Virus record (IMG/VR): IMGVR_UViG_3300044960_000172
Location: 1 to 64,000 of that record
Strand: one strand, 5' to 3'
Length of the DNA stretch: 64,000 bases
From: a virus
The notes under the pieces were generated by a model. It was not told where the DNA came from and ran no database searches. It saw nothing but the letters and a program-made list of their open reading frames with translations. The position numbers and the translations under genes are program-made. Each line of letters starts with the position of its first letter. Within the stretch, counting starts at the first letter, position 1. Of the stretch, positions 147-18,549 are shown piece after piece.

Positions 147-236
147 AGCTGTTTACATGGTATCTCTATGTCTATTAAGTACCTTCAGGTATTTTTTTCA
201 CTTTTTCTAAAAGACCTGAAAAAATACTTAACAGCT
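147..236. other. Inverted-repeat element at left edge of the structured region
   Basis: AGCTGTT at 147-153 pairs with AACAGCT at 230-236, TTAAGTA at 175-181 with TACTTAA at 225-231, and CAGGT at 186-190 with ACCTG at 214-218. The outer two overlap by two bases, so they may be alternatives. Runs of T and A lie inside the loops. On the minus strand the T-run near 219-225 could be the end of a leftward transcript, but no clean terminator stem precedes it. Confidence 0.4.
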
Positions 237-873
237 GCGATTCTTATGCAGGTCGTCACCCTTCTGGGGTAACTTCCTGGTTTTATCGCAAGAAATGCTT
301 TTAATCTATCTTATAGGCAACCTAAGAAAGGGGTTAGGCGTTTGAGTCTACCGTCTTAGCGCATGTCTGGAATTTCCCACGGCTACATCGCCTCGTGTAC
401 ACTACCTCAAACGTTCGGTTACATGTACACGATTTCTAGGCGATTCCAGGCGAACGGTACAGAGTTTTTGATTCCGTCATGAATAACAGAGACTAGGTTG
501 ATTAATTAAAAATAACTACTAGCAGTCACTCTGGCTGCAATTCTCTGTTATCTGAGACAGCGCTATCCGAGACACTCCGCGAATGAAAACTCGGCTACAT
601 ACACCGCCAGACCGCCCGTAGACCCGTCCCCTACAATCTGAGTAGTAGGTGGCACTCGCCGCGACAGGCTGCGAACTCTCACCTCCTGATCTGCTGCGTC
701 AGGAAGCCTTTGCCAGCTCACTGTGGCCCAAAGAAGTAGAATAATTGAGGGAGAATGAGGTCTAGTAGCATTCACCAGTCGTACGACTATTCTCGCTGAA
801 TGACCTCTTTATCTCCTCATCATCTCTATATGGAATGTTACATCAGATAGAAGTAACGGTCAATAGTTACTTC
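231..873. ncRNA. Large structured noncoding RNA candidate
   Basis: About 640 bases without a credible gene, visibly richer in G+C than its surroundings and dense in perfect inverted repeats. Stems (plus coordinates): 236-241/285-290; 321-325/334-338; 349-354/454-459; 367-371/445-449; 387-401 with 424-431 and 438-444 (15 bp with a 6-base bulge); 483-492/542-551 (10 bp); 567-571/590-594; 666-670/705-709 enclosing 684-689/699-704; a three-part stem 757-761/803-807, 769-774/797-802, 777-781/784-788; and 850-857/866-873, which spans the stop codon of the TnpB-like gene. Bases 339-346 are an 8-base perfect complement of 406-413, inside the loop of the 387-444 stem, which would make a pseudoknot. 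Strand cannot be decided from pairing alone; the minus strand is favoured because the neighbouring genes read that way. Large ornate phage RNAs such as GOLLD and ROOL are an analogy; class membership is not shown. A guide-RNA role for the adjacent TnpB-like protein is the other possibility. Confidence 0.6.
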
Positions 874-1664
874 TCGAATTTACTCCTGGGATTACTATCT
901 TTCAGAGCATTAGCTGCTTTCTTAGCAATCTTTATTGCAGCATAGATATCTCTTTCATATTTAATGGGTATAGGTAACGCTTCTGGATTATTTTGCACTG
1001 CTGGAGAAGTATCTAGTAACAGAATCCTTCTCTTCAAGCAAGCACGTTTAAGACAGAGATAACTGTATTTAAGAATAAAGTTTGGTTTATTTGTAATACT
1101 TTCTGTTGCTAGAATTAAAGTAGACTTAGCCTTCTTATGTTTAGTCTTTATCTGCCTTACGGTTCTAGATATCCAATTTCTTATGCCTTCTTTTATTATC
1201 TTCTTCGTTTTGTTTATCTTATCTATTAACTTTAAATAACCCCTTGAATCCTTCTGCTTATTTCTAAGCTTTCGCTTTAATCGGCATAATCTTGCTATAT
1301 TTAGCTTTACACCAAAATCTAATTCAAATACTTCATTAGCAGATGTTACTATTGTCCTATTAACTCCTAGATCTATTCCGATTATTGTTGGATTTCGTAT
1401 CTTAGCCAGAAAATCTGGTTGATATGCGATTAGTTGAGTTATTACTCTAGAGTTAACTCTTTTTACCATCAATTTAAAGTACTTTATCTTCCTTGCAGCG
1501 CCATATAGCTTATTACTAACAAAACTACCAACTCCTCCTACATTGAATCTATCTCCTACCCTTACCACAGAGAAATAATCCATTTCTTTATCTTCTTCAC
1601 ATAGTTTAGCTTCTAATATATCTATGAATTCGGGGTCAATATCGACTCTGAAGGTGTTGAACAT
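867..1664 (-). CDS. Compact TnpB-like RuvC-domain protein
   Basis: A 265-residue protein with the three RuvC motifs of TnpB (IS605/IS607 accessory nuclease, ancestor of Cas12). GIDLG at residues 96-100 gives Asp98, the ATES segment gives Glu188, and ERDIYAAIKIA gives Asp239, equivalent to the RDxNAAxN motif of TnpB. The CxxC zinc finger that TnpB carries between motifs II and III is missing: a short DTSPAVQNN linker replaces it. Only about 95 residues precede motif I, far fewer than in ordinary TnpB of roughly 370-400 residues. The catalytic acids are kept, so it is not an obvious nuclease-dead TldR-type protein. The start overlaps the upstream GP88-like gene by 43 bases and has only a weak AAGG upstream. 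No TnpA transposase is nearby. It could be an active RNA-guided nuclease, a domesticated regulator or a decaying insertion-sequence gene. Confidence 0.75.
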   Translation of the reverse strand: MFNTFRVDIDPEFIDILEAKLCEEDKEMDYFSVVRVGDRFNVGGVGSFVSNKLYGAARKIKYFKLMVKRVNSRVITQLIAYQPDFLAKIRNPTIIGIDLGVNRTIVTSANEVFELDFGVKLNIARLCRLKRKLRNKQKDSRGYLKLIDKINKTKKIIKEGIRNWISRTVRQIKTKHKKAKSTLILATESITNKPNFILKYSYLCLKRACLKRRILLLDTSPAVQNNPEALPIPIKYERDIYAAIKIAKKAANALKDSNPRSKFEK

Positions 1665-2359
1665 AGTTTCATTTTAACCTTCTGTAAGACATCCTTGTTC
1701 CAACAGATTTTACACTTATGGCAGGTCATATTTTTATTGATTCCATTCTCTTTAGGACATACTATTGCCGAGTTTATTTTCTTAATTCTATTCTTCTTTA
1801 CTAAGAAAGCTACTGTCGCATTTACTTCACTGCAAATAAAGCTTTCTCCTAAATCGTTCAGCATTACCGCGACATTACTGAATGTAGCTGCTAAGTTGTT
1901 GTTCCATTTCTTATAGTTATCTATATCTATAGAACACCAAAGGATCATATTACTGAGGCTATTTAGTACTTTTAAATAAGATAGTAAGTACTCTTTCTCC
2001 CATACCCGTGTATAAGTGAAGAACTTGGTATTGGGACAAGCACAGATAATATCAATCCATTTCTTCACGTATTTATCGGAATAGAAATCTCCAGAGGTAT
2101 GTATTCTAAGTACTTTAGGCTTTATATTCTGAATAATTGAAATCATTTGTATAGAAAATGAATCTGATAAAGATGAAATATAATTATTTTTATGAACTTT
2201 TTGTATTACTTCTAGTTTATAGAAATGTTTCTTTGCATAACAAGCTGCACTGCAAGACTTTGTAGCAGCAATACAAATTTCAGGATTAGCTGGAATAGAC
2301 CAGTTATACAACTTACCTAATTTTGTATTGCCTTCCGTCAGTTTGGGAACGCAGGTCAT
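1622..2359 (-). CDS. GP88-family phage protein
   Basis: A 245-residue protein matching the GP88 ('gene product 88') family found in mycobacteriophages and other phages. The recognisable features are an early SIPANP...C...SCSAACYAKK stretch, then RIHTSGDFYSDKY and a following W, then a cysteine group near the C terminus (MTCHKCKICW). The conserved cysteines suggest metal or cluster binding, but the biochemical role of the family is unknown to me. The start is ATG with no clear ribosome binding site; a terminator hairpin lies upstream. Its last codons overlap the start of the TnpB-like gene, so the two may be translated together. Confidence 0.75.
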   Translation of the reverse strand: MTCVPKLTEGNTKLGKLYNWSIPANPEICIAATKSCSAACYAKKHFYKLEVIQKVHKNNYISSLSDSFSIQMISIIQNIKPKVLRIHTSGDFYSDKYVKKWIDIICACPNTKFFTYTRVWEKEYLLSYLKVLNSLSNMILWCSIDIDNYKKWNNNLAATFSNVAVMLNDLGESFICSEVNATVAFLVKKNRIKKINSAIVCPKENGINKNMTCHKCKICWNKDVLQKVKMKLCSTPSESILTPNS

Positions 2360-2403: not shown

Positions 2404-2438
2404 GAAAGGGAGGCCTGGTAGATCCAGACCTCCCTTTC
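2404..2438 (-). terminator. Hairpin terminator after the DUF932 gene
   Basis: GAAAGGGAGG (2404-2413) pairs with CCTCCCTTTC (2429-2438), continuing inward with CTGG/CCAG (2415-2418/2424-2427). It lies just downstream of the minus-strand DUF932 gene and is followed leftward by TTTCTATTTATATAG. It is nearly symmetric and could act on both strands. Confidence 0.65.
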
Positions 2439-3494: not shown

Positions 3495-3509
3495 TGAAAT
3501 ACTCCAAAC

Positions 3510-4202
3510 TCAGAAAGGACAAGCTACAGGCTCTAGATGGATACAGTCTTTACTATCTGCTAAGATTCTACTAACTAGATCTTTTATCACTATGTGTCTA
3601 GCATAAGATGTTCGTCCATATATCTTATGCGAATTTTCTTTATTCATATCTGCTAAATGCATTAGTCGTACAAAATCAAATAGATATTCTCTTTCACGTC
3701 CAGGACGGTAGTTTTTCTGTAAATGTTTGCAATATTTAGGTACAAATTTATTTACATCAATAAGAAATATTTTATTGTTTGTTGCAAAGGTAACATGTGA
3801 GATGTCATCAGTAGTTTTTACTATCCAACCTTCAAAAGGACGTTCTACTAGAAAATAGAATAAAGAATCTGGAAATTTCAAATGTGGTAGAACCGCAGTA
3901 AGTCTTTTAATAGGTAGATTATCTGCTCTCAACTTCCCTTTCTTCAAAAAGATATCATACGTCATTTTAGACATTGGGATGGAGCCTAGAAACCAAGTGA
4001 TATGTTGGTCACCGTCTGATATTGGGGATACAAAATGATGAACATCTTCATTTTCTGTATATGGTTTACCATTTACTATAAAGAAGCCGTTACTAGTTAT
4101 GTAGTTATTATCTAATAGATATCTCCTTACCTCAGCAGCAGCTTCATTTCTGTATAGAAGCACTCCATCCAGATAAAACGAACTAAAGCTAGTATCGTTC
4201 AT
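3510..4202 (-). CDS. Hypothetical protein
   Basis: 230 residues, not recognised. It is globular in composition, with no signal peptide or membrane helix. The C-terminal third is rich in basic and aromatic residues (KYCKHLQKNYRPGREREYLFDF). Its ATG overlaps the stop of the upstream gene in an ATGA arrangement, which indicates coupled translation with the 4199-4747 gene. It may form a small operon with that gene and the DUF932 gene. Confidence 0.7.
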   Translation of the reverse strand: MNDTSFSSFYLDGVLLYRNEAAAEVRRYLLDNNYITSNGFFIVNGKPYTENEDVHHFVSPISDGDQHITWFLGSIPMSKMTYDIFLKKGKLRADNLPIKRLTAVLPHLKFPDSLFYFLVERPFEGWIVKTTDDISHVTFATNNKIFLIDVNKFVPKYCKHLQKNYRPGREREYLFDFVRLMHLADMNKENSHKIYGRTSYARHIVIKDLVSRILADSKDCIHLEPVACPF

Positions 4203-4747
4203 CCTTGAGCAGATCCCAGGTTTTGGAGGAACATCGAATCTACCGACAGTTTTGACAATTCTTCAGAAATAAATTTGGCATAACCTTCTGGGGTTCTATT
4301 AACAAATCTGACTTTTCTATCCTCCCCAAGTACTGCTTCTAGATAGGAATCGTTAGTATGCGCCTCACAAACATGTACTTTGGCTTGAACAGCATTAGTA
4401 TCTTTCTTGCACGGTAAATACATTTCCTTAAAAGAGAATGCTGCTAACTCAGTCCCTTTTTCATTTAATGCAACGATTAATTGGGATAAGATACTTTGCA
4501 CCTTCTGAAATTCAGGTGAGGCAAATAGTGCCCGATTGAAGTCAATTCCATTGACTTTCGGTAAATCCTCGAATAGCTCGAAGTCTAAATGTGTGATGAG
4601 AATTGGCACATTGTTGTGATTACATAGTTTAACGAGAAGATCATCTCCGAGCATTCTTACCAGAACACCGTGCGTGAAGACGGGAATATTGTCCTGAATC
4701 TCAGGACCATAGGACGGTTGTTCCGAAAGGGTTATGATTTCAGTCAC
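4199..4747 (-). CDS. Hypothetical protein, GTG start
   Basis: 182 residues, not recognised. The GTG start at 4745-4747 is chosen because AAGGAAGG lies at the right distance and no in-frame ATG is close. No membrane segments. The end overlaps the next gene by four bases (ATGA). It is the first gene of its group: the preceding 150 bases hold a terminator and a possible promoter. Confidence 0.7.
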   Translation of the reverse strand: MTEIITLSEQPSYGPEIQDNIPVFTHGVLVRMLGDDLLVKLCNHNNVPILITHLDFELFEDLPKVNGIDFNRALFASPEFQKVQSILSQLIVALNEKGTELAAFSFKEMYLPCKKDTNAVQAKVHVCEAHTNDSYLEAVLGEDRKVRFVNRTPEGYAKFISEELSKLSVDSMFLQNLGSAQG

Positions 4748-4770
4748 GGTGGCATTCCTTCCTTGTGTTG

Positions 4771-4799
4771 CACAGAATCGGGTACGAGAACTATGTCAA
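4771..4799 (-). promoter_or_regulatory. Possible sigma-70-like promoter
   Basis: A perfect TTGACA -35 box on the minus strand (4799-4794) lies between the terminator at 4845-4872 and the GTG-start gene. At the usual spacing the -10 position reads TCTGTG or TTCTGT, a poor match. Position supports a promoter; the -10 does not. Confidence 0.25.
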
Positions 4800-4844
4800 T
4801 TAGATTTCTGTAAGTCACTAATTTACAGTTTTGTCTATAAATAA

Positions 4845-4872
4845 CAATAGCCACCATTTCTGGTGGCTATTG
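4845..4872 (-). terminator. Hairpin terminator
   Basis: A perfect 12-bp stem, CAATAGCCACCA (4845-4856) with TGGTGGCTATTG (4861-4872), and a 4-base loop. It lies 25 bases after the stop of the minus-strand DnaQ-like gene and is followed leftward by TTATTTATAG. Probable intrinsic terminator of that operon. Confidence 0.75.
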
Positions 4873-4896
4873 TATGAAATCAATTTTCATTTCTGA

Positions 4897-5466
4897 TTAT
4901 TTATTAACTAGTGAAAATAGTTTAAGTAAAGCATGTGCCTTACTTAAACAGTCACCAGTTTCTATTTTATATGATAGATCTTTATCCTCTAATAGTATTT
5001 CTACCTTTCTATGAAGTGGAACTTTTTGAAACGTTTGGCCATACCTTTCAACGATGGCACTGTTTACATACACGACCTCTGAAGGAATGTTGAACTGTTT
5101 GGCCTGTAAAAACTCCTTTACCCACTCATTTACTAACAGTAACGGAAAACCGAACCTACTAACTAATCCGGAGAAAATCCTATGTGCGGTTTTAATTCCG
5201 ATTCCGGTATCTATCAATTCTTCTAAGGTTAGCTTTGCTCGCTTCGCTATTTTTATTCCGCTACTTTCTAATATTGCTTCTCTATTGTTACTAGCTTCTA
5301 ATTTATCTTCTATTTCTTCTAAATCTGTAGTAGTAACATCAGGCCTTATAAATATGGATATTTGTCTGGTAATAATATTTTCAGTTTCCGCTACTAGACA
5401 CAATTGTAATAGGACGTCTTGTTCTGGATCAAGTCCAGTTGTTGATATAGCTACAGCCAGTGGCAT
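4897..5466 (-). CDS. DnaQ-like exonuclease fold, catalytic residues missing
   Basis: 189 residues. The N terminus VAISTTGLDPEQDVLLQL mirrors the ExoI motif of DEDD exonucleases (DxETTGL....d.ilqi), but the two metal-binding acids are replaced by Ala and Ser. The C terminus DCLSKAHALLKLF resembles the last exonuclease motif (H/RAxxDAxAT..lF) without the expected Asp. It therefore looks like an inactivated proofreading-type domain, perhaps a binding or clamp-like partner. The fold assignment rests on these motifs only. AAGGAAG precedes the ATG. It lies two bases after the RuvC-like gene, suggesting one operon with a recombination function. Confidence 0.5.
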   Translation of the reverse strand: MPLAVAISTTGLDPEQDVLLQLCLVAETENIITRQISIFIRPDVTTTDLEEIEDKLEASNNREAILESSGIKIAKRAKLTLEELIDTGIGIKTAHRIFSGLVSRFGFPLLLVNEWVKEFLQAKQFNIPSEVVYVNSAIVERYGQTFQKVPLHRKVEILLEDKDLSYKIETGDCLSKAHALLKLFSLVNK

Positions 5467-5468
5467 TC

Positions 5469-5945
5469 TTATCTTCCTTGTTTCTTTACTATGTTCCCGT
5501 ATAAAGCTAGCAATGCTGCCTCAGCAATATCATGGGTACCAAACGTTGTCCTAAATATAGTCTCTGCAAGAGCTTTTGACTTCTTTTTATCACTATCTAC
5601 TTCTAATGCTTTCTTCCATGTTCTAGGACTGACTTTGATTACTTCAAAGTCTAATCCTTTTAGCAGGCCTTCAATGATCCCAGCAGCTTTTAAAAAATTC
5701 CCAGTACTACTAACGCCCTGGCCGGCCATTGGGTGTACATTCTCTATTACTGCTACAGAGACATTGAAAGCTTTCTTCAATGAAGTAAATAGTTTCTGTG
5801 TGCCTTCTACGTCTTGAACCTTCTTGTACTTATTCTTCTTTACCTTCTGTGCTCTAAATGGCAGCTTACCACATTCTATAAGCTCATTATTACCGTTTAT
5901 TAAGGCGTATCCACCGTTAATACCTACATCAATTCCTAGAATCAT
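5469..5945 (-). CDS. RuvC-like Holliday junction resolvase
   Basis: 158 residues, normal RuvC length. GIDVG (Asp6), VIENVH (Glu68) and THDIAEAALLA (Asp139, Glu142) reproduce the acidic catalytic set of RuvC/RNase H-fold resolvases. SVAVIE is followed by the usual Gly/Ser-rich stretch, then KVSPRTWKKAL, the RuvC 'P..WKk' region. It should cleave recombination junctions or branched replicating DNA before packaging. It begins after an AAAGGA ribosome binding site and sits between a DnaQ-like and an unknown gene. Confidence 0.85.
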   Translation of the reverse strand: MILGIDVGINGGYALINGNNELIECGKLPFRAQKVKKNKYKKVQDVEGTQKLFTSLKKAFNVSVAVIENVHPMAGQGVSSTGNFLKAAGIIEGLLKGLDFEVIKVSPRTWKKALEVDSDKKKSKALAETIFRTTFGTHDIAEAALLALYGNIVKKQGR

Positions 5946-5946
5946 T

Positions 5947-6498
5947 TTAAGGTCCTTTGTTGAGTATCATATCTGTCAAAGAATCTAGACTTTCTCTGAC
6001 AGCATTTATTACTCTCAAACATAAATCTTTTACTTTTCTAAAAGCTCTATTAGTCTTTCTCATTATTGTTCTTGTAACTATTTGTTTATGATATTCATTT
6101 ATTTGTCTAATGAATTCTTCTACCGCTAATGGAGGCTTATCCCCTAGACAATGAACATCTTTAATAGCAATATAAGTGGAATAGATTAGAGCTTTCCCAA
6201 TATAACTAAGTACAGTATTTATTATCGCAGGATCGCAGTCCAGAAAGCCGCTCTCAAGGAGAGCTTCTTGATCTGTCTTTTCTAAGATGTTGGATACAGC
6301 TTTACCTAGCTTTTCTACAGCAGCTTCTAAATCCTCTATTGTAAAATCACTGAAAGTAAATTTACCAGCATCAATATCTTCCTCAAGGAAAGTCATAGCG
6401 GCAGTAATAATACCTACTCCACAATTAGCTAGATCTCTAGCAGGAGAGTAATATAGCCTATCAGGAACAGTTCCTTCCGTAGGTCTATACTGTAGCAT
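5947..6498 (-). CDS. Hypothetical helical protein
   Basis: 183 residues, not recognised; mostly helical in composition. The N-terminal half is acidic (FLEEDIDAG, FTIEDLEAAVEKLG) and the C-terminal half basic (IVTRTIMRKTNRAFRKVKDLCLRVIN). No membrane segment or known motif. Strong TAGGAGA before the ATG. Stop lies one base before the RuvC-like gene, so it is in the same operon. Confidence 0.65.
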   Translation of the reverse strand: MLQYRPTEGTVPDRLYYSPARDLANCGVGIITAAMTFLEEDIDAGKFTFSDFTIEDLEAAVEKLGKAVSNILEKTDQEALLESGFLDCDPAIINTVLSYIGKALIYSTYIAIKDVHCLGDKPPLAVEEFIRQINEYHKQIVTRTIMRKTNRAFRKVKDLCLRVINAVRESLDSLTDMILNKGP

Positions 6499-6510
6499 AG
6501 TTTCAGTCTC

Positions 6511-7203
6511 CTAGGTATCTCTTCTATTCAAGGATTTAATTACATTGACTTTCTCATCCAGGAACATATTTTTGACAATGCAAGTATCTCCAAGCACAGT
6601 AAATTCTCCATATCCGAATTTACCTACTAGATCATATCCTGATCTAAACACAAGTTTATTCTTTTCGTTGAATCTCATACTGAAACCTAGTCTATACGCT
6701 AGAGCTTTCAAGAATTCTACTTTATTAGCTTTCTTATATACTACAGATCCGGCATGGGAACCTGTTAGTACTTTCATAGTCAATGTCATATCTTTGATAT
6801 CAAAGCCTGTAATAACATAGAAAGCTTTCTGAGTCTGTTCACCGCCTCTTTTAGCTAATCTCGTATCTTCAGTGAGATCGAATAGATTACCAGTTATCAA
6901 ATAAGCAATTTCTGTGATGTGAGACGGTAACAACTTTTCTCCTAGATAAGGCTCTAGGATTCCTCTAAATACATCTTCATCTAGCTGCTTTACAGCACTT
7001 TTCTGTTGCCCATGAAAAATATCATCAATGCTTTTGATAGTAATATCTAGCTTACTAGCTATGCTATTAGCAAGTTCTACTGTCAACGTCCGTCTATTAC
7101 AGTCATCTAGACAAGATCTAATTAGTAATAGAATTTCTGTATATTTCTCTGCTAGATATTTCTCTCCAATGGAGGCTTTATTTTCAATAAGGATACTATT
7201 CAT
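6511..7203 (-). CDS. Hypothetical protein
   Basis: About 231 residues from ATG at 7203 (MNSILIENKAS). Longer starts at 7257 and 7299 would run through the acidic tail of the upstream gene and add only Lys/Thr-rich residues, so the internal start, overlapping the previous stop by 8 bases, is preferred. Not recognised. The C-terminal half is beta-rich (KAFYVITGFDIKDMTLTMKVL; YGEFTVLGDTCIVKNMF). The start has no strong ribosome binding site, so translation is probably coupled. Confidence 0.6.
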   Translation of the reverse strand: MNSILIENKASIGEKYLAEKYTEILLLIRSCLDDCNRRTLTVELANSIASKLDITIKSIDDIFHGQQKSAVKQLDEDVFRGILEPYLGEKLLPSHITEIAYLITGNLFDLTEDTRLAKRGGEQTQKAFYVITGFDIKDMTLTMKVLTGSHAGSVVYKKANKVEFLKALAYRLGFSMRFNEKNKLVFRSGYDLVGKFGYGEFTVLGDTCIVKNMFLDEKVNVIKSLNRRDT

Positions 7204-8053
7204 CTTGCTCGGCTTCTGTTGAGTAGTCGTCTTCTTCTTCGTAGTCTTCTTCGTCATCTCCAATGCCTCTATCTTCTGAATCATCTTCAGTCTTATCATC
7301 TTTTTGTGTTAATCTTTTCTCTATTCTTTCTCTAATTTTCTCCATTTCTACTATCATACCATAGAGTTCAGTTCTCAGGGTCTTAAGATTTTCTAATGTC
7401 TGATCTAATTTATTCAATACGGTTTCAATAACTGATTCCGTCTCATATTCTAGGACGGCTGTAACTTCTCCAAGTAAATCGAAGTCGTCCCAGGAATCCT
7501 CCTTTCTACTAAGTATATCGTTGCAAACTTTATTTATCTGATTTGTGAAATCATTAATAGAATCTACTTTCTTAACAGATTTACCAGGTTTGGTAGGTTT
7601 GTAATCAAGTTCTTTCTTGACTTCTTCTAAATCCTTTCCCTTTTGTAACTTATCAATAATTACTTTCTGTTCTGCTTCATCTCTTCTGGAAATGAATACT
7701 ACTTCTTTCCAGGTTACTTTATCTTCGTCTTGCCCTAGGGTATCAATTACATTCAATTTGAATTCTTCTTCCGTCTTCCAAGTATCTACTACTTTAATCA
7801 TTTCATACAAAGGATTCACGCTTTTGTAGCCAATAGCAATGGCTAATCTAGAAATCAGAGATTGTCCATAGAGGCTGGATTTCTCTTTGGCTCTTGTATA
7901 GATGTCATGAACATATTTGGCAATTTTATATCTACCAATCAGTTCTAATTTAGCTTCATTCAGAAGCATTTCTCTAAGATTTTCGTATATCTCTTTTTCT
8001 TCTTGATTGAATTGAGAAATGATACGTTCAGCTTCGGTGATTAAATCTACCAT
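7196..8053 (-). CDS. Hypothetical protein with coiled coil and acidic tail
   Basis: 285 residues from ATG at 8053, chosen because GGAGATATAAAG directly precedes it; the in-frame extension to 8092 overlaps the upstream gene and lacks such a site. The first 130 residues are helical (KYVHDIYTRAKEKSSLYGQ; RLAIAIGYKSVNPLYEMIK). Residues about 190-255 look like a coiled coil (LNKLDQTLENLKTLRTELYGM). The last 35 residues are almost wholly acidic, the kind of tail seen on DNA-mimic or ssDNA-binding partner proteins. Function unknown. Confidence 0.65.
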   Translation of the reverse strand: MVDLITEAERIISQFNQEEKEIYENLREMLLNEAKLELIGRYKIAKYVHDIYTRAKEKSSLYGQSLISRLAIAIGYKSVNPLYEMIKVVDTWKTEEEFKLNVIDTLGQDEDKVTWKEVVFISRRDEAEQKVIIDKLQKGKDLEEVKKELDYKPTKPGKSVKKVDSINDFTNQINKVCNDILSRKEDSWDDFDLLGEVTAVLEYETESVIETVLNKLDQTLENLKTLRTELYGMIVEMEKIRERIEKRLTQKDDKTEDDSEDRGIGDDEEDYEEEDDYSTEAEQDE

Positions 8054-8067
8054 CTTTATATCTCCTA

Positions 8068-8856
8068 TTATTGGAGTTCCACTAATACACAAGCGGCGTA
8101 AGAATCTATGTCTTCTATGACAGTCGTTGATACTAGATAAAGTATTTGCTTAACTGGAAGTCTTTTCTTAGCTATGTGTTTAACGCATTCATTGATAATC
8201 ATTAATAACATAGTAAATGTATCCATTGTTTTATCTAATTCCTCTGGAATTTTCTTCTTATCCAAAGATTCTGTTGTAGCTGACATATATACTTTTGTGT
8301 AACCATCACTTTCTACAGTGGTTTTAATATTTCCTTCTTTAACTTTTACTTGGTTCTTTTTATCGGCCTCTAGATAGAAACATTTGTATTTAGAAATATT
8401 ATTGTGAATATTGTTAGCTAGACTCTGTTCTATTCTTGTATATACGGTCACTAAATGTGGCCAGATACAAGCTATAGATTCATCTTCAAAGGCTTCGTCC
8501 CCTCCGATATACAAACCTAGATTTACAGGTTTATCGTTTTCTTTATTAATTTCGTAGAAGAGAACTATTTCTTTGGCATCCAACTTAGACTCTTTTATCG
8601 CTTTAAAGAATAAAACTATTAAATCTAAATATTTATCTTTTGAATTGATAAATAGGTGTTTCAGTACAGGTACTAAAACAGGAAATCCGGAATTCTTCAG
8701 TAATCTAATTCCAGAATCTGAATCAACATGATCTAAGACTTTATGTACCTGACAGTCATTAGAACTGATGCCTACATAATTTGTATTTTCATCGACTGTA
8801 ATAGTATTGATCATTAATGTCTTATTTCCAAAGAGTTCTAATTTAAATAATGTCAT
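8068..8856 (-). CDS. Hypothetical protein
   Basis: 262 residues, not recognised. The N-terminal part is beta-rich (LFKLELFGNKTLMINTITVDENTNYVGIS) and acidic in the middle. The C terminus has a hydrophobic stretch (MLLMIINECVKHIAKK) that is too short and charged for a membrane helix. Ribosome binding site AGGAG precedes the ATG. It is in an operon with the genes on both sides, between 12 and 15 bases apart. Confidence 0.65.
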   Translation of the reverse strand: MTLFKLELFGNKTLMINTITVDENTNYVGISSNDCQVHKVLDHVDSDSGIRLLKNSGFPVLVPVLKHLFINSKDKYLDLIVLFFKAIKESKLDAKEIVLFYEINKENDKPVNLGLYIGGDEAFEDESIACIWPHLVTVYTRIEQSLANNIHNNISKYKCFYLEADKKNQVKVKEGNIKTTVESDGYTKVYMSATTESLDKKKIPEELDKTMDTFTMLLMIINECVKHIAKKRLPVKQILYLVSTTVIEDIDSYAACVLVELQ

Positions 8857-8868
8857 TAGTAATTTCTC

Positions 8869-9300
8869 CTAAGAATAATCTGCTAGGAGATAGTTGATGA
8901 ATCTCTTTAATGTAACGATAGCTACATCTTCGTCAAATACTTTAGTTACATAGTTCTTCAATAAAATAAATGGAGGGCCCATATTATAAGCAGTTATGTA
9001 ATCCGAGATCATACAGAAATTATTTAGCCCTCTAATTCTAGTTATTACTATTGCATGCTTCTGTGTGAGTTGTGACTTAATTTTCTTATCTATTTCCTTT
9101 AATACGTTCTCCCAATATTTATTACTTCTTAGAGCTTTCAGTAAAACTAGATTGGTATCTAAAGAAAAAACATCCCTACAGGCGGCGAGCTGTAGGGATG
9201 TCTTATTAAGCTTCTTTCTAGATAACCTCCTAATGTATGCGTCTACCTCTCCATCGTAGTTTTCTCCTCCGAAAACATCCTGTAATTGGAACAGACTCAT
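8869..9300 (-). CDS. Hypothetical protein containing an intragenic terminator
   Basis: 143 residues from ATG at 9300, where AGAAGGAG precedes it at good spacing; an upstream extension would lack such a site. Not recognised. The beginning overlaps the end of the 9230-9658 gene by 71 bases in another frame. Codons about 33-43 lie on the arms of a perfect terminator hairpin whose T-run encodes the next residues (VFSL). The C-terminal part reads like a helical globular domain. Confidence 0.55.
   Translation of the reverse strand: MSLFQLQDVFGGENYDGEVDAYIRRLSRKKLNKTSLQLAACRDVFSLDTNLVLLKALRSNKYWENVLKEIDKKIKSQLTQKHAIVITRIRGLNNFCMISDYITAYNMGPPFILLKNYVTKVFDEDVAIVTLKRFINYLLADYS
9170..9201 (-). terminator. 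Intrinsic terminator inside a coding region
   Basis: CATCCCTACAG (9171-9181) pairs perfectly with CTGTAGGGATG (9190-9200), extended by A9170-T9201, with an 8-base loop. On the minus strand it is followed at once by TTTTTTCTTT. This is a classical intrinsic terminator about 100 bases into the 8869-9300 gene and 30 bases beyond the stop of the 9230-9658 gene. It could end transcripts of the upstream gene while the downstream genes depend on readthrough. Confidence 0.75.
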
Positions 9301-9658
9301 TTCTGAAACTCCTTCTCGGATCCTCCTTCTTTGGACGAGAAGACATTTCCTTACGAACACGTTTAGTACATTGTTTGTGTGTAATTGCAGGTTTAGGACT
9401 ATTCTTAAATTTAATATCGTGTACGAGCTTATTTTTACTCTGAACAGTAACTTTACTCTCAGGAGTAATCTTTACCACTTCAATTTTATTTGAAGGGATG
9501 TTTTTAGTTACTTGAATTTTATTTCCAGGAGTAATTTTTATTACATTGATTTCTTTATCTGTATTCTGTATTTGTGGATTATGTCCTTCTCGTATTATTT
9601 TTTCTGGACAGACAGGATTGCAAATATCTACTAACAATTTAACTATTTCACGAAACAT
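9230..9658 (-). CDS. Hypothetical basic protein
   Basis: 142 residues, not recognised. Residues about 39-74 contain an imperfect threefold repeat (VIKITPGNKIQV / TKNIPSNKIEV / VKITPESKVTV). The C-terminal half is strongly basic (KRVRKEMSSRPKKEDPRRSFRN; FRRRKLRWRGRR), suggesting nucleic-acid contact. GGAGATATAACC precedes the ATG. Its last 71 bases overlap the next gene; a terminator lies shortly after the stop. Confidence 0.55.
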   Translation of the reverse strand: MFREIVKLLVDICNPVCPEKIIREGHNPQIQNTDKEINVIKITPGNKIQVTKNIPSNKIEVVKITPESKVTVQSKNKLVHDIKFKNSPKPAITHKQCTKRVRKEMSSRPKKEDPRRSFRNESVPITGCFRRRKLRWRGRRIH

Positions 9659-9741
9659 GGTTATATCTCCGAGATTTTAAGTTCGTGTCGATAACTTCTC
9701 CTCCTTGGACTTGTGAAAACAGAACTAGTTTTCAATCCTTT

Positions 9742-10935
9742 TTATTCTTCATTTGCTTCATCTGCTTCTACTTTAACATCCTCCTTGCTGTTGGTCTCCT
9801 TGACAGCTACGTTTTTAGGTTCTATGAACGTAGCTTTTCTAATCATCAGCACCTTGTATAACTCCTCAAGGAGCTGCTGATTAGACTCGATCATTTTTCC
9901 CAATTCCTCCGCTGATATAGCACTTTCTCTAGATACTCCTAACTCCTTACAGAAGTATCTTATTCCCTTACTACCAGCGGATCTACTCTCTATATTTATT
10001 ACAGATCTAATTTTATTTAATAATTTATCTTTAATTCTGATATTAAACCCGGCACCTTCATGAAGCATTTTCACAGTAGCTGTATTCCATAAGAATCTAG
10101 CTACTAGAATAGTTTCATGAATGCCTGCTTGCTTTATGACAAACGGAACAATAATAGAATTCTTTTCAGGACCAAATCTGTTTTTAGTAACCGTTATTCT
10201 CAATGCAGATTCATAACTATCTGATTTAAGTTCTGGTGCCTTCTCTTTATGCATTTCTAAAATCAGTTGAGCATGATACGTCAATGCTCTACCGCCTGGG
10301 ATATATTTCTCAGGTCCACCATATGGATTTATAGATTCTTTAATATGATTTGTTGCTAGTAACGTAAAAGGATAATTTAGTAGGATAGAATTCTTGTGTT
10401 TCAGAAAACCAGATAGTAATTTAGCCTCTAGAGGATAGCTAGATAGTGTGTTTACATCTTCTTCTAATTTATTGCTAGTTTTCTTAGACTCAGAACCAAT
10501 TATAGAATCAATGATAAAACAGACAGGAGCATGTACTCCAGCATTTATTGCTTGCTTAAATTTTGGAACTACTCTTCTTATTAAAGCATCTATCCAATCT
10601 TCCATAAATTGATATTCTTTAGCAAAGATAGCTTGTCCTAGTACAGCTTGATGTAGGGTAGAAGAAGCACCTTCAGTATCGAATAATACTGCTTCTCCTC
10701 CCATTTCTAGATGCCATTTAGCAATTTCTAGACATAGTGTAGATTTATATGAAGCATGAGGTCCAGTAACTAATATGAATTTGCTTAATGGTAAACCTTC
10801 ATATTGAATTAAATATCTGAATGCTAATGATGGAACCTTAATACAAAGTGTGTTGCTACCATACTGTTCTAATACACCTTCATTACATAATTCTTCCTTA
10901 ATTTCTTCTAATGCTGACTTAAACAGACTGCTCAT
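9742..10935 (-). CDS. RecA/UvsX-like recombinase
   Basis: 397 residues. A RecA-type ATPase core: Walker A GPHASYKST at residues 58-66, then AVLFDTEGASS (the Glu-bearing segment), a Walker B-like CFIIDSI, TLLATNHIKES, and a PGGRALTYHAQLIL block typical of RecA loop 2 and its surroundings. A helical C-terminal domain and an acidic tail (VKVEADEANEE) follow. It should promote strand exchange for recombination-dependent replication and repair, with the SbcCD, UvsW-like and RuvC-like proteins encoded nearby. ATG start with AGGG upstream. The tRNA-Leu gene is just upstream on the same strand. Confidence 0.85.
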   Translation of the reverse strand: MSSLFKSALEEIKEELCNEGVLEQYGSNTLCIKVPSLAFRYLIQYEGLPLSKFILVTGPHASYKSTLCLEIAKWHLEMGGEAVLFDTEGASSTLHQAVLGQAIFAKEYQFMEDWIDALIRRVVPKFKQAINAGVHAPVCFIIDSIIGSESKKTSNKLEEDVNTLSSYPLEAKLLSGFLKHKNSILLNYPFTLLATNHIKESINPYGGPEKYIPGGRALTYHAQLILEMHKEKAPELKSDSYESALRITVTKNRFGPEKNSIIVPFVIKQAGIHETILVARFLWNTATVKMLHEGAGFNIRIKDKLLNKIRSVINIESRSAGSKGIRYFCKELGVSRESAISAEELGKMIESNQQLLEELYKVLMIRKATFIEPKNVAVKETNSKEDVKVEADEANEE

Positions 10936-10981
10936 ACGGAGACCCTAAAGTAGCACAAAGTAACGCTAAACAGACAATTAG

Positions 10982-11067
10982 TGGTCAGGACGGGACTCGA
11001 ACCCGTACGACCATTTCTGGTCATCGGATTTTAAGTCCGATGTGTCTGCCGATTCCACCACCTGACC
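10982..11067 (-). tRNA. tRNA-Leu(UAA)
   Basis: Reading the minus strand, the acceptor arm GGTCAGG pairs with CCTGACC (10983-10989 and 11061-11067) and the discriminator is A. The anticodon arm is TCGGA/TCCGA with loop CTTAAAA, giving anticodon TAA. A long variable arm (GACCAGAAATGGTC) and a T arm ACGGG-TTCGAGT-CCCGT make it a class II leucine tRNA. No 3' CCA is encoded. It lies between the recombinase and the 11106-12431 gene. UUA is a frequent codon in this AT-rich genome, a plausible reason to carry it. Confidence 0.95.
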
Positions 11068-11072
11068 AGAAT

Positions 11073-11093
11073 GCCTGCCATTTATTGGCAGGC
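11073..11093 (-). other. Hairpin between gene and tRNA
   Basis: GCCTGCCA (11073-11080) pairs with TGGCAGGC (11086-11093) around a 5-base loop, just after the stop of the 11106-12431 gene and before the tRNA. No T-run follows, so an RNA-processing or stability element is more likely than an intrinsic terminator. Confidence 0.55.
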
Positions 11094-11105
11094 GGTATTA
11101 GTTTA

Positions 11106-12431
11106 TTACTGTCCTTTATTTCTCTTGGCTCTAATAGCTTTAATTAGTGATTCAATATCTTCATCCTCTTCTTCTACTATATCTTTCTTACTGTTGATAT
11201 CCTCTGCTTCAAACGGTACTTCGTCTTCATCGTCATCTTCTAATAATTGGTTAGAAATCTTATTCAATAGAGACTTACCAGATTCTTTCTTTGGCTGTTC
11301 TTGTACTACAGCCTTTTGTGTGAAAGTAACGCTATCTAGATCATCCTTGACTTCTTGCTTTACTTGTGGCGTTCTCTGTTCCTCTACTCTAGCCACTTTT
11401 TCCGAAACAGGGATAGTAGAATCAATGGGAACAGAGGTGATACCTAGCTCCTTAGTTGCTTCTTTAATTACCCTATTGGGTAAATCGAAAGAATCAGCAA
11501 GAGCACAGTAAAGATAGATACTAGGAATATTGCACCAAAGAATAATATTGAGTTGCTCCTCAGGAGAAAGAAGGATAAATGTCTTTGACCATTTCGTAGT
11601 TTTAGACGTAATATCAAAATCTTTTGGTAGATTTGGTAAATGCTGATCGTATTTACTCAATACCCTTACTTCATACTGGGTTAGCCCAGGTTTACCGCTG
11701 GTAGGATACCAGCTTTTATCTGTACCGTGTCTTACAACACGGATAAAAGCACCTTCTTCTCCAGTTACATCTACAATATGACCTCCTGTTTCTTTAATAT
11801 TAGACTCAACTTCTTGACTAGCTGATGATGGTAATAAAACTATAGGGACGGCAGGAAGGTGTGGTTCTAGTCCACACATTGGTTCATACAATTTAGACTT
11901 ATGAACCAGGACTAATGACTGAATAGCAGTCATTTGCTTTACTTTAACAGAAGTCCTGGTATCTATTTCTAGTCTCTTATAGATCTTCGGATCAAGTAAA
12001 GCCTTCTTGTGTTCAGCTTCCTCGGTTTTACCTAGGGCATACAGCATTTTGACTTTACTATACTTACTGAAAAATGTATGCAGTGCCCAGGCTGGAGAGT
12101 CTTCTCGTACGGAGAAGTCTTCTAACCTATGCCTTACTACAAAGTTAGCAAAGCGTTCTCCTGCTACTTCTGCTACGTCAAATCCAGAACCAAACCAATT
12201 ACCAATGTCTCCGTCAAGCTCTAAGCTAGTGATCTGATCGTTTTCATCTACTATTGGAAGAGGTCTAAACACTAAAGCTGTAAAATCCCAAGTTGGTTTA
12301 AATAGATATCTTCTAGTACCATTTACTGGAGCTAGAATAAAGGATTCAAAGTTACCACCACGACCCCTCATTAGAGGGTTGTCACTAATCTTAAGCTCTC
12401 TCACAGCACACTCCTGTCTAGCAAAAGTCAC
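11106..12431 (-). CDS. Hypothetical protein, possible ssDNA-binding protein
   Basis: 441 residues. The first 330 are globular with aromatic and basic residues (GTRRYLFKPTWDFTALVF; TKWSKTFILLS). The last 110 are low-complexity and acidic (EDDDEDEVPFEAED; DIVEEEDEDIESL) ending in a short basic cap. Position between the DNA polymerase and recombinase, and the acidic tail, resemble phage ssDNA-binding proteins of the gp32 type, but I recognise no diagnostic motif, so this is inference from context. The ATG overlaps the polymerase stop by four bases, hence coupled translation. Confidence 0.6.
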   Translation of the reverse strand: MTFARQECAVRELKISDNPLMRGRGGNFESFILAPVNGTRRYLFKPTWDFTALVFRPLPIVDENDQITSLELDGDIGNWFGSGFDVAEVAGERFANFVVRHRLEDFSVREDSPAWALHTFFSKYSKVKMLYALGKTEEAEHKKALLDPKIYKRLEIDTRTSVKVKQMTAIQSLVLVHKSKLYEPMCGLEPHLPAVPIVLLPSSASQEVESNIKETGGHIVDVTGEEGAFIRVVRHGTDKSWYPTSGKPGLTQYEVRVLSKYDQHLPNLPKDFDITSKTTKWSKTFILLSPEEQLNIILWCNIPSIYLYCALADSFDLPNRVIKEATKELGITSVPIDSTIPVSEKVARVEEQRTPQVKQEVKDDLDSVTFTQKAVVQEQPKKESGKSLLNKISNQLLEDDDEDEVPFEAEDINSKKDIVEEEDEDIESLIKAIRAKRNKGQ

Positions 12432-15364
12432 TTCAGAATCTTAGACACCATGTCTAGATGATACTCTTTGTCTGACATCGCTTGCCCATAGATATTCCAT
12501 TGCTTGAAAGTTACTTTCTTAGCTATCTCTGGAATTAATTCATTAGCTACTAATTCAGCATACTCTGACTTAACTTCTATTAATAATGCATCATGTAATG
12601 GTAGCAATATTCTAAGTTGTAATTCATCCTCCTTAAATTCTTTAACTGCTATTTTCTGTAGATAAAACGTGAATAGATTTAAGCAATCTGCAACCATTGA
12701 TTGGAAGGGATAATTTAGAGATTCTCTCTGATACTTATGTAAAGTCTCCTCATCATAAGCTTTTCGGAAATGTTTAATTCTACCAAAATAATTGATTTGA
12801 TATCCAGGATGTATCGGAACATTCATTAGTACTTCTTGTAGATCAGCAATTTTTGGATAGCTTTCCATAATAATATCTTTTAATTTGATAGCATCATCTT
12901 CGTTGATTTCTATATGTTCTTCAGATTTAATTTGTTTACAAATAGTGGAAATTCCTCTCCCATAATTTATGCCGTAAATTAATGACTTTGCTATGGTTCT
13001 TAGATGAGCTTTACCTAACTTCTTTAATGCTTCTTTAGTTGGTGGACAATCCAACTTAAAAGCTTTGCAAGCTAGATTGGAATGAATATCGTAGTAATCT
13101 GGATGATTGTCTGGAAGAGCAGATCTTCTACAATGTTCTATTAGAAGGTCTTCCCCAGACATTACTCCTAGTACAAAAAGCTCTGCAGATGCAAAGTCGC
13201 ATTCTACTAGGGAATACCCTTCCGCTGGAATAATGATTGATCTAAGGGTGGTGTCTATTTTACATAGATTCTTAAACTCTTCGTCTCTTCTTTTACTAAA
13301 ATTTTGCATGTTAGGTCTGGAACTCCTACATCTACCAGTCTTTAATGTAGGAGAAACGAAAGACCTAACCCTACCGTCATCTTGAATAAAGCGTTCCCAT
13401 TTTTCAGATAATGTATTTTTTATGGCATGATCTACTATTTTGATATTACTTATATCTTTAGCTAACTGACTACTGGCAGATAAAATTCCACAAGTCTCTT
13501 TATCTACACTTACTCCTACTAGTTTCTTAGTCTTTTCGTCTAGCGTATCCCAGCCTTTAAATCTTTTATTTAACGTTTTATCTGTTAGCTTGATTGGTTT
13601 TAGATTTTCTACTTGGGCTTCTGGAGGAAGAATACCTTCTACATCAAATTCTCTTCCATATAGAACTATTCTTAGGTGATCCATTTTTCGTGGATCGAAG
13701 GATGGCCATTTTATCTTCTCTCTAACTTCATCTACTAATCTGTTATAAGCTTTCTTAAAGTTAAGACGTAATTCATTCCATAAGTCTAAGCTGATGCGTA
13801 CGCCATAGTACATCATATCTAGTATGGCGCAACACATCCTGCTAGTGCTAATGAAGGCACCCCAAGAATTAAGTTCCTTTTTATCTTTGTATAATAAATC
13901 TTTTAGAACATGATAGCTCTTTAACGTGTAGTAAACGTCTAAACCACCATATCTAACTAACATTTCTGTAGGTGCATTACCATAGCTTAAACCGTCTTGC
14001 TCCTTCTTATGCTGTTTTACCCAATCTACTATATCTTTATCCCAGCGCTCTGCTCCTACAGTTCTTTTTGCTATCTCGCATAGATCTAGACTCAATTCTT
14101 CATCCAGAGCAAGAGAAGCCATAGCAATGTCAAATACACCTACTTTTATATCTTTTAGTTTTACAACATCACTATATATAAATTCCTTTGGTAACTTAGA
14201 GAATTTTGGATATAGATCTATTCCAAATTTCCTTAACCAAACAGCGTCAGTATAGAAGAATGAGCCTGCCAGGGTAATACTTGGACATAGAAATATATCT
14301 TTCAATAGAGATCTTATTTCTTCTATCTCTATGTCTGTAAATAAAGGCTGTCCAGTTTCATCTGTTAAGAGTAGTACATAAGTACCATCATCAGTAGCTA
14401 TTTGAATACTTCTTAAGAAAGCACCAGAACGTTCTATTTCTCCATTCCACTCGCAGTCTACAGCTATCGTCGTGTCTTTTCCTACTAATTCATTTCTAAG
14501 CTGTCTAAGTTTATCTATTGTAAGTAGTTCTATAGGAATTTCGTTATTTTCGTTGCTATTAGTGCTTACTTTAGTTTTCTCAATTTCTTCTAGAAATAAA
14601 TCTAATTGAGCAATCTTAGAGAAAGTAGTAGTTAAGATATTACCTTCGCATATTTCACCGTCTGGTGTCTCGAATTTATAAGTAGAAATAGTACCTACTT
14701 TGAGATCGGTGTTCAGTAGTTTCTTAAGTAATAAAGTACAAGGGTTAGCATGAAAGTAGATAATCAATTTTGGTTTTAAGATATATATTTCATTAGCTAC
14801 TAGCGGATAGCAGTCTTTAGTAAACTGTTTAATAGCTTTATCTGAATTAATTAGCAGCTTCCACCTAATGAAGTTCGCTAGGTAAATAGCGTGGTCTTTG
14901 TATTTCGTACTATTATTCTTCCAGTTAACTATCTTTTGCAGAGTATTGTAACCAACAGTCCCACAGAAGTTTATTTTGTATCTGTAATCTTCTTCACCTA
15001 TATGCTTTCCTAATATCATTATCGTATTATCTGGATTCATTATGGGACCATATTGGTCAAAATCCTTAGGTTCTACAAATATCTTTTTATTGTAAAAATC
15101 AATATAATTATAGAGTTTTGGAGAATAGAAATGTCCAGGAACAATATATACATTGTCTTGAATATCTTGTTCGTAATAGTTTATTTGTAAATGTTTTACT
15201 GAATATAATGCTTTCTTGTAAAACTTATTTATTACAAGTAATAATTCTTCATCTGTAATATCTGGAATTATCTTTTTGAAATAATCAATTACAGATGTTC
15301 CTAAATAGTCTTTAAAGTAATCAATCCCATAATATTTGGACCTAGATTTAGTATAAGTCTTCAT
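12428..15364 (-). CDS. Family A DNA polymerase with UDG-like N-terminal domain
   Basis: 978 residues, longer than a plain family A phage polymerase. Residues about 110-262 resemble the family 4 uracil-DNA glycosylase fold (GKHIGEEDYRYKINFCGTVG, then YLANFI, then EIYILKPKLIIYFHAN), though the iron-sulphur cysteines and the C-terminal HPS motif are not seen. Residues about 298-470 are a 3'-5' exonuclease (AVDCEWN: Asp303, Glu305; FFYTDAVWL; YGGLDVYYT). The polymerase domain has motif A VECDFASAEL (about 723), motif B RTIAKSLIYGINYG (about 791) and motif C LPLHDALLIEV (about 925), where HDA replaces the usual HDE. This is the replicative polymerase, encoded beside its primase and helicase with four-base overlaps on both sides. 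Similar glycosylase-like fusions are, as I recall, known in SPO1-type phages. Confidence 0.9.
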   Translation of the reverse strand: MKTYTKSRSKYYGIDYFKDYLGTSVIDYFKKIIPDITDEELLLVINKFYKKALYSVKHLQINYYEQDIQDNVYIVPGHFYSPKLYNYIDFYNKKIFVEPKDFDQYGPIMNPDNTIMILGKHIGEEDYRYKINFCGTVGYNTLQKIVNWKNNSTKYKDHAIYLANFIRWKLLINSDKAIKQFTKDCYPLVANEIYILKPKLIIYFHANPCTLLLKKLLNTDLKVGTISTYKFETPDGEICEGNILTTTFSKIAQLDLFLEEIEKTKVSTNSNENNEIPIELLTIDKLRQLRNELVGKDTTIAVDCEWNGEIERSGAFLRSIQIATDDGTYVLLLTDETGQPLFTDIEIEEIRSLLKDIFLCPSITLAGSFFYTDAVWLRKFGIDLYPKFSKLPKEFIYSDVVKLKDIKVGVFDIAMASLALDEELSLDLCEIAKRTVGAERWDKDIVDWVKQHKKEQDGLSYGNAPTEMLVRYGGLDVYYTLKSYHVLKDLLYKDKKELNSWGAFISTSRMCCAILDMMYYGVRISLDLWNELRLNFKKAYNRLVDEVREKIKWPSFDPRKMDHLRIVLYGREFDVEGILPPEAQVENLKPIKLTDKTLNKRFKGWDTLDEKTKKLVGVSVDKETCGILSASSQLAKDISNIKIVDHAIKNTLSEKWERFIQDDGRVRSFVSPTLKTGRCRSSRPNMQNFSKRRDEEFKNLCKIDTTLRSIIIPAEGYSLVECDFASAELFVLGVMSGEDLLIEHCRRSALPDNHPDYYDIHSNLACKAFKLDCPPTKEALKKLGKAHLRTIAKSLIYGINYGRGISTICKQIKSEEHIEINEDDAIKLKDIIMESYPKIADLQEVLMNVPIHPGYQINYFGRIKHFRKAYDEETLHKYQRESLNYPFQSMVADCLNLFTFYLQKIAVKEFKEDELQLRILLPLHDALLIEVKSEYAELVANELIPEIAKKVTFKQWNIYGQAMSDKEYHLDMVSKILK

Positions 15365-16326
15365 TGGTCGTGGAAGAAGGAATCAGGATCATCAGTTATT
15401 TCAGAGCTAAGGACAACGGCGTTAGTTAATCTCGATGCTAATTCTTTGGCTTCTGCCTCTGCATCTTTATCTAGTAATACAACCTTACGCTTCCAATTCT
15501 TTTCCAGTAGATCTATCTGTGTGCTAGAAGCGGTCTTTCCAAATAAACACACAGTATTTTCTTTACCAAGAGTTTCCGTCATTCGGAATACGTCAAACAC
15601 TCCTTCGACTATGATCACAGAGGATCTATATTTTACAGCATTATCAAAGTTAAATAGAATTGTTTTTGTTTTCATTCCAGGCATATGAATATATTTAGGA
15701 GAGCTGTCATTTATAGTTCTAGCAGTCCAGCCTACCAGTTTCTCCTTAAAGTACACTGGAATAATAATCCTATTATTCAGGAAACCGTTTCTAGCATCTA
15801 TATTTACATATAGATTATATTTTTGAGCTAAAGATTTAGGATCAAATCCTCGTTCTCTTATGTAGTTGTAAGCTAGCTCATATATTGTATTTACCAAAGA
15901 GATAGAGCCTTTGGGGATAAAGGCTTCCTTTAGTTCACTAATCTCTTCTGTATCTTGACACTTTATTATCTGTGTATTAGCTACTACGCAGGTAGTATTA
16001 AATGCAATTGCTTTGATTAACTTAAATCTTTTAGCTTTACTATTTATACAATTAGAGTTGTAACAAACAGCAGGGTATACTTTATATTTACCTACCTGCA
16101 TTCCCCAGATATGGCTGATCCACAACCTGGATCTTTTATCCCCGCAGAAGGGGCAGTCTACAGAATAACACTCGCCCCAATCTATGATATCTATTTTGTT
16201 ACTGATAGTTCTGTAGACAGCTTTGTCACCTTGCCTATGGATTTTGATATTATGGAATAAATTTGACAATTTATTGTATAACTGGGCATTCAGTACTTTA
16301 GAAGTATTTCTTTCTGATATCGTCAT
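15361..16326 (-). CDS. DnaG-type DNA primase
   Basis: 321 residues. An N-terminal zinc-binding domain has CPFC at 58-61 and a second pair Cys88/Cys93 (CYNSNC). A catalytic core segment (GFLNNRIIIPVYFKEKLVGWTAR) is followed by a Toprim domain: IIVEGVFDVFRM with Glu241 and LLDKD with Asp286/Asp288. It should make RNA primers for the lagging strand. Shorter than bacterial DnaG, with no C-terminal helicase-binding domain evident. It overlaps the polymerase start by four bases and the helicase end by 29, so the three are one translational unit. Confidence 0.9.
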   Translation of the reverse strand: MTISERNTSKVLNAQLYNKLSNLFHNIKIHRQGDKAVYRTISNKIDIIDWGECYSVDCPFCGDKRSRLWISHIWGMQVGKYKVYPAVCYNSNCINSKAKRFKLIKAIAFNTTCVVANTQIIKCQDTEEISELKEAFIPKGSISLVNTIYELAYNYIRERGFDPKSLAQKYNLYVNIDARNGFLNNRIIIPVYFKEKLVGWTARTINDSSPKYIHMPGMKTKTILFNFDNAVKYRSSVIIVEGVFDVFRMTETLGKENTVCLFGKTASSTQIDLLEKNWKRKVVLLDKDAEAEAKELASRLTNAVVLSSEITDDPDSFFHDQ

Positions 16327-17797: not shown

Positions 17798-17861
17798 GGA
17801 CAAAATCCTTTCTTTTCGTTGTCTTTTCTTTAATATCTTTGCTTAGGATAATATCCGTCAT
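17781..17861 (-). CDS. Possible small basic peptide upstream of the helicase
   Basis: A 26-codon frame (begins MTDIILSKDIKE, ends RKDFVRGKDK) with AAAGGC ahead of its ATG. It starts in the gap between the 17875-18549 gene and the helicase and overlaps the helicase start by 17 bases. Rich in Lys and Asp. It could be a leader peptide coupling helicase translation, or chance. Confidence 0.3.
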   Translation of the reverse strand: MTDIILSKDIKEKTTKRKDFVRGKDK

Positions 17862-17874
17862 ATCTATTTTGCCT

Positions 17875-18549
17875 TTATTTTTCTTGACACAGAAATTTAT
17901 TATCATCTTTTTCCATTGCTGAATCATATAAACCTCCATTATCGTCTTTAATATTAAGAATGTGATCTATCTTATTCAGAATTATTTTACCTATTTCTGT
18001 CTTGTGATAAGCAAGAGGCCACAACTTGTATTGTAACATAGACTGCCTTATTAAGGATTTAGGAAGTGCTTTATTCGTGTAAGTGAATAACAGGTAAAGT
18101 CTTACGATAGGATTCTCCACTTGTTTAGCTGCTAAGACGAATCTGACCTCCTCGTTTTGTAACAAGGATATAGGAGGGGTCGTACAATCTACACTGAATT
18201 TGTGGAGGCAGGAAATAATATTATTGGAAAATTGGTTAAGCCTTGTAGCTAAACGACTTACGTAATCTTTTAGAACCTTATCACTTAATAGCATATTCAA
18301 ATAAGGTTGTCTGAATACAACAAATCCTGCTCTTACATAACCTTCATAATCAGAAATATCATTTTCTTCTAACTTCTTTACTATTTTCAGTGCAGTATTA
18401 TGACTTCTGGTATCAACAGCTTTTATAGTCCTTTGATATTGATAGACATTAGCTGCATTTCCTTTGCTTAGAGCTGTGTAAAGATAGAAGGATTCTTTAA
18501 GTCTGAAAGCTTTGTAATCGGATGCAGTAATGCATCGCATTGTATCCAT
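17875..18549 (-). CDS. Hypothetical protein
   Basis: 224 residues, not recognised; helical and basic, rich in Leu, Lys and Tyr, no membrane helix. Its start lies 82 bases inside the end of the upstream UvsW-like gene; no later in-frame ATG is available near the N terminus, so this long overlap seems real. It lies between two helicase genes, so a replication or recombination accessory role is likely by context only. Confidence 0.6.
   Translation of the reverse strand: MDTMRCITASDYKAFRLKESFYLYTALSKGNAANVYQYQRTIKAVDTRSHNTALKIVKKLEENDISDYEGYVRAGFVVFRQPYLNMLLSDKVLKDYVSRLATRLNQFSNNIISCLHKFSVDCTTPPISLLQNEEVRFVLAAKQVENPIVRLYLLFTYTNKALPKSLIRQSMLQYKLWPLAYHKTEIGKIILNKIDHILNIKDDNGGLYDSAMEKDDNKFLCQEK

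Follow-up and report, generated by a model that had tools for sequence, protein, structure and literature searches.

A candidate large structured RNA beside a miniature TnpB-like gene at the end of a tailed-phage contig

The gene-free left end of the phage contig analyzed here probably encodes a large structured RNA that matches no Rfam family, on the minus strand and running roughly from position 873 down to 172. The case for a structured RNA comes from folding statistics. The RNA adjoins a co-directional TnpB-like gene and begins at its stop codon, and the first hairpin (850–873) includes that stop. The reading we favor, at a probability of about 0.4, is that the RNA acts as an enlarged omega-RNA-like guide scaffold of this stripped-down TnpB; it is drawn from the anatomy of the locus.

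The window, the whole 64,000-nt stretch of DNA under analysis, is the left end of a linear record of 86,868 bases, and its base 1 is the contig end. The phage is of the tailed type and carries genes for a family-A DNA polymerase, a RecA-like protein, an SMC/RecN-type ATPase, a terminase and a multi-subunit-type RNA polymerase. Its nearest relatives are the sister contig G049 (96% identical) and the 229-kb phage G038 (RNA polymerase ~41% and terminase ~40% identical). The sister contig reaches only as far as window position 3500 and misses the tnpB-like gene by 1.8 kb. Its locus L106 (G049:18000-37713) is 96.3% identical to window positions 3500–22957 and has ~250 additional bases at L106:18161-18413. 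At the contig end, AT-rich tandem repeats occupy 1–115 with a 35-bp unit, TTTCTATATCTCTATAGATATCTCTATAATTTATA, and a tandem-repeat scan places the copies at 5–90; the contig terminus falls within these repeats.

Folding of the gene-free stretch

A sequence-only reading of this DNA had proposed a ~640-base structured RNA at 231–873, in a stretch that is free of genes, GC-rich and unusually dense in inverted repeats. All three features hold. Positions 1–866 contain no ORF of at least 90 aa, the sole such gap longer than 306 nt in the 86.9-kb record. A 70-aa ORF at 563–775 was considered and rejected as coding, as its codon score falls below those of all 53 reference genes and it has no Pfam match. 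The GC content is 43–55% over most of 201–800 compared with 35% genome-wide, and four perfect inverted repeats of at least 8 bp are present where 0.78 are expected, a number reached by only 2 of 200 shuffles. The segment 231–873 also folds better than its shuffles (z −3.5 for the minus strand and −3.1 for the plus strand), none of 60 being as stable, while 21 control segments of the minus strand, each 640 nt long and taken from along the record, range from z +0.84 to −3.23. The strand preference from folding is weak.

The structure is uneven, and in this the proposed RNA stands only in part. The best-folding segment is 172–480 on the minus strand (z −4.95 versus shuffles), which starts outside 231–873; the domain thus appears to reach beyond the earlier left edge to a hairpin at 236–290 and a near-palindrome at 172–234. 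The signal is weaker in 701–873, and 481–700 behaves like its shuffles, with no excess stability on either strand (z −0.36 plus, +0.24 minus).

The predicted elements, all on the minus strand, are described from the 5' edge. An 8-bp hairpin with the tnpB-like stop codon (850–873) is formed by the perfect repeat 850–857/866–873 with a mean pair probability of 0.97. The previously proposed three-part hairpin at 757–807 is recovered, with stems 802–807/757–762, 794–797/767–770 and 785–789/776–780 and mean probabilities of 0.92–1.00. The 10-bp stem 483–492/542–551 is likewise present, within an 11-bp stem (482–552, mean pair probability 0.88) that closes an internal hairpin. A long interrupted hairpin follows at 367–449, pairing 443–449/367–373, 437–440/376–379 and 423–432/393–402 with mean probabilities of 0.83–0.98; what had been described as a 15-bp stem is found here as 393–401/424–432 (9 bp) stacked on 387–393/438–444 (7 bp). 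Bases 406–413 in the loop of this hairpin are perfectly complementary over 8 bp to 339–346, giving a candidate pseudoknot (339–413). The complement claimed earlier therefore exists, but the match alone is not significant in shuffles: 6 bp are unpaired in the minimum-energy fold, and loop-to-outside matches at least that long occur in 12 of 150 shuffles. Toward the 3' end lies a further three-part hairpin (236–290) with stems 285–290/236–241, 276–279/249–252 and 267–273/255–261 and mean probabilities of 0.95–1.00. The 63-nt near-palindrome (172–234) marks the 3' edge with 11 bp, 8 bp and 4 bp at mean probabilities of 0.98, 0.88 and 0.56, and is possibly a transcript end or an element end.

Membership in the GOLLD or ROOL families, suggested earlier, is not borne out. 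Covariance models of all 4227 Rfam families, applied to 1–1000 on both strands at gathering thresholds and at E ≤ 10 with permissive filters, give no match, leaving GOLLD, ROOL and RAGATH-18 alike unsupported. Searches by blastn against phages and plasmids return no homologue of the RNA, only 32–34-nt matches in RNA polymerase genes. Phage relatives found through DUF932, RNA polymerase, terminase and GP88 carry neither the miniature TnpB nor the RNA in the records searched; the contig scans rely on short peptide or DNA patterns, which distant relatives may escape.

The miniature TnpB-like protein and its probable transcription unit

The tnpB-like gene (867–1664, minus strand) is absent from the sequence-only reading. 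Because it ends exactly at the RNA start, it indicates the minus strand and alters the likeliest interpretation of the RNA. Its product is a 265-aa miniature TnpB-like RuvC protein, recognized from profile matches, alignments, residue positions and codon usage. TnpB is an RNA-guided nuclease ancestral to Cas12, and the ISDra2 enzyme has a total length of 408 aa, against 265 aa here. The protein matches the PHROG transposase phrog_506 (7e-10) and, with 33 bits, NCBIfam guided_TnpB (NF040570; 3.8e-8), which is below the curated cut-off of 100. Profile comparison by hhalign gives 94.8% probability to a TnpB profile over RuvC-I and the next helices. A weak match to a Cas12f profile (8e-6) lies in the RuvC-I region; this is a likeness to the Cas12f/Cas12u proteins of types V-F and V-U, from which the protein differs in missing REC and the zinc finger. 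Profile matches span only about residues 60–193, and on them the protein is assigned a TnpB-family RuvC domain.

The RuvC triad would consist of D98 (GIDLG), E188 (LATES) and D239 (ERDIYAA). D98 and D239 align with those of all compared TnpBs. E188 was placed by eye from spacing and local pattern, and MAFFT places it and the C-terminal part inconsistently. With this assignment the catalytic D-E-D triad appears intact. The ISDra2 TnpB domains are WED (1–12 and 117–176), REC (13–116), RuvC (185–326 and 360–375) and TNB (327–359), with catalytic residues D191, E278 and D361 (PMC10097598). The D-to-E spacing is 90 residues in the miniature protein (D98–E188) and 87 in ISDra2 TnpB. The E-to-D spacing is 51 (E188–D239) versus 83, so that 32 residues are missing compared with a TNB length of 33. 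Before the first Asp the protein is 93 aa shorter than ISDra2 TnpB, and the REC length is 104. REC between WED strands 1 and 2 is absent by length (~92 residues before RuvC versus 184 in ISDra2), with a corresponding alignment gap. No TNB zinc ribbon of the form CxxC...CxxC is present; the protein has only four cysteines (22, 127, 204 and 209) and no CxxC. The simplest reading of these lengths and residues is a TnpB without REC and TNB, with no recognizable REC- or TNB-sized segment. AlphaFold prediction on the single sequence, run with no alignment, gives a pLDDT of 43, too poor for a fold search.

Upstream, a GP88-family gene (1622–2359, minus strand; Pfam PF17338, 2.3e-28) overlaps the tnpB-like gene by 43 bases, and the two are probably on one transcript. 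The G038 copy of the GP88-family gene is 33–34% identical and lies at another genome position. A 15-bp terminator-like hairpin (2404–2438, minus strand) separates the unit from the upstream DUF932 gene. The unit of GP88-family gene, miniature TnpB and RNA is thus framed by this hairpin and the palindrome at 172–234. No TnpA is recognized among the ORFs near the tnpB-like gene, and the tandem-repeat scan of the record shows no CRISPR array near it. Homologues of the protein were found in none of the viral contigs, genome contigs, or phage and plasmid collections; the viral-contig matches are only ordinary TnpBs with zinc ribbons, and the genome-contig matches are unrelated proteins.

A possible guide scaffold and the competing readings

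As a guide scaffold, the RNA would be made by the phage as a large minus-strand transcript from ~873 to 172, in one unit with the GP88-family gene and the miniature TnpB. It would bind the miniature TnpB and take over the tasks usual for the absent REC and zinc-ribbon domains. Its 3' end may present a guide, with which the protein would cut a target DNA. In known systems the omega-RNA gene overlaps the tnpB 3' end on the same strand (PMC10097598). Here too a structured RNA lies at the tnpB 3' end on the same strand, its strongest structure displaced 390–700 nt past the stop. The locus is like TnpB with its omega RNA or reRNA (IS200/IS605, IS607, ISDra2) in the RuvC family of the protein, in the protein-then-RNA order on one strand, and in a structured RNA with a possible pseudoknot. 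It differs from them in the gene-free RNA of ~640–700 nt with that distant structure, in the protein length (265 versus 408 aa), in the missing REC- and TNB-sized segments, and in that neither TnpA nor element ends were found here. Against the guide scaffold, the next ORF of at least 60 aa starts no more than 222 nt past the stop at ordinary TnpB loci (n=10), whereas the strongest fold here is at 390–700 nt. It is also disfavored by the failure to identify a guide, TAM, target, TnpA or element ends at the locus, and by the single sequence, with no homologue of RNA or protein in the collections searched. The weak strand preference, the limited span of the profile matches, the inconsistent alignment of E188 and the C-terminal part, and the low pLDDT count against it as well.

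IscB and IsrB provide a precedent. They lack REC, and a bulky omega RNA serves an analogous role (PMC10097598), which makes a REC-less TnpB beside an unusually large RNA coherent. The likeness is a REC-less nuclease beside a large RNA able to replace REC; the difference is that IscB and IsrB belong to the Cas9 lineage, whereas the protein here matches TnpB and Cas12 profiles. A bolder form of the proposal is a phage RNA-guided nuclease in which both REC and the zinc ribbon are replaced by the ~640–700-nt RNA, as an independent TnpB-lineage counterpart of the IscB/IsrB strategy; we regard this as unlikely. If the RNA and the protein do cooperate, the pair would rank with the smallest RNA-guided RuvC systems and would show that the Cas12 lineage, as is known for IscB, has exchanged protein domains for RNA. 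TldRs, the phage-encoded nuclease-dead TnpB repressors, are similar in combining a TnpB-derived phage gene with an RNA adjacent downstream. However, their RuvC domains are inactivated (PMC13418256), while the miniature protein has D98, D239 and apparently E188 (placed by spacing); the presence of the two aspartates argues against TldR identity, although E188 is uncertain.

The scaffold has to be weighed against a free-standing large phage RNA of a new class, with a GOLLD- or ROOL-like, self-assembling function that needs no protein partner, next to a TnpB-like gene by chance. We consider this possible, if somewhat improbable. The ~700-nt size, phage origin, raised GC and multi-domain fold with a possible pseudoknot all suit it, as does the distance of the strongest structure from the TnpB stop, and ROOL and GOLLD are themselves large, structured RNAs encoded by phages, with no protein partner known for either (PMC12286853). 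However, positions 1–1000 match no Rfam covariance model at E ≤ 10, and tRNA islands are frequent neighbors of ROOL and GOLLD (PMC12286853), whereas the window's only tRNA is 10 kb off and the close neighbor is TnpB-like. The exact abutment on this co-directional gene would also have to be a coincidence. If the RNA and the protein are unconnected, the RNA would still be a candidate new large structured phage RNA.

In a decaying mobile element, the TnpB would be degenerate and the flanking DNA now functionless, as the absence of whole domains, the lack of a recognized TnpA nearby and the singleton status of the protein in every search would suggest. The open frame and apparently kept triad speak against decay, the lost lengths match whole domains, and the structure exceeds shuffles. 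Codon usage is phage-like, so the gene is no obvious pseudogene, and we find decay decidedly unlikely. A role of the stretch as DNA, as a replication origin or packaging region with AT-rich repeats (1–115) beside palindromes, seems to us quite improbable. It draws on the gene-free stretch, on the adjoining of the 35-bp repeats at 5–90 to the near-palindrome at 172–234, and on the contig end within repeats, but neither the GC-rich 500–800 region nor the long-range hairpins of several parts resemble simple iteron arrays. The similar plus- and minus-strand folding scores do not discriminate this role from an RNA.

Observations in related phages

A weak TnpB-profile match in the relative G051 was examined as a relative of the miniature TnpB and set aside, being a Cas12f/u3-like protein of a different kind. 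This 431-aa protein, encoded at G051:212463-213758 (L102:1459-2754, minus strand), resembles Cas12f and Cas12u3 (2.7e-7 and 1e-6). No CRISPR-like repeat array lies near its gene, and the expected catalytic-Glu segment may be altered (IKYDDS).

A structured element of 147 nt occurs five times in phage G038, at L072:144-290, 475-622, 4380-4524 and 4903-5049 (plus strand) and L062:11837-11983 (plus strand). A covariance-model test of its homology to the window RNA led to rejection, the best score being 6.3 bits (E 0.06, plus strand). Over L072 no Rfam family matches at E ≤ 1, and the element is absent from 61 other records searched. RNAalifold predicts 46 pairs, 19 of them with changes on both sides that preserve pairing, and the element is a candidate new repeated phage RNA.
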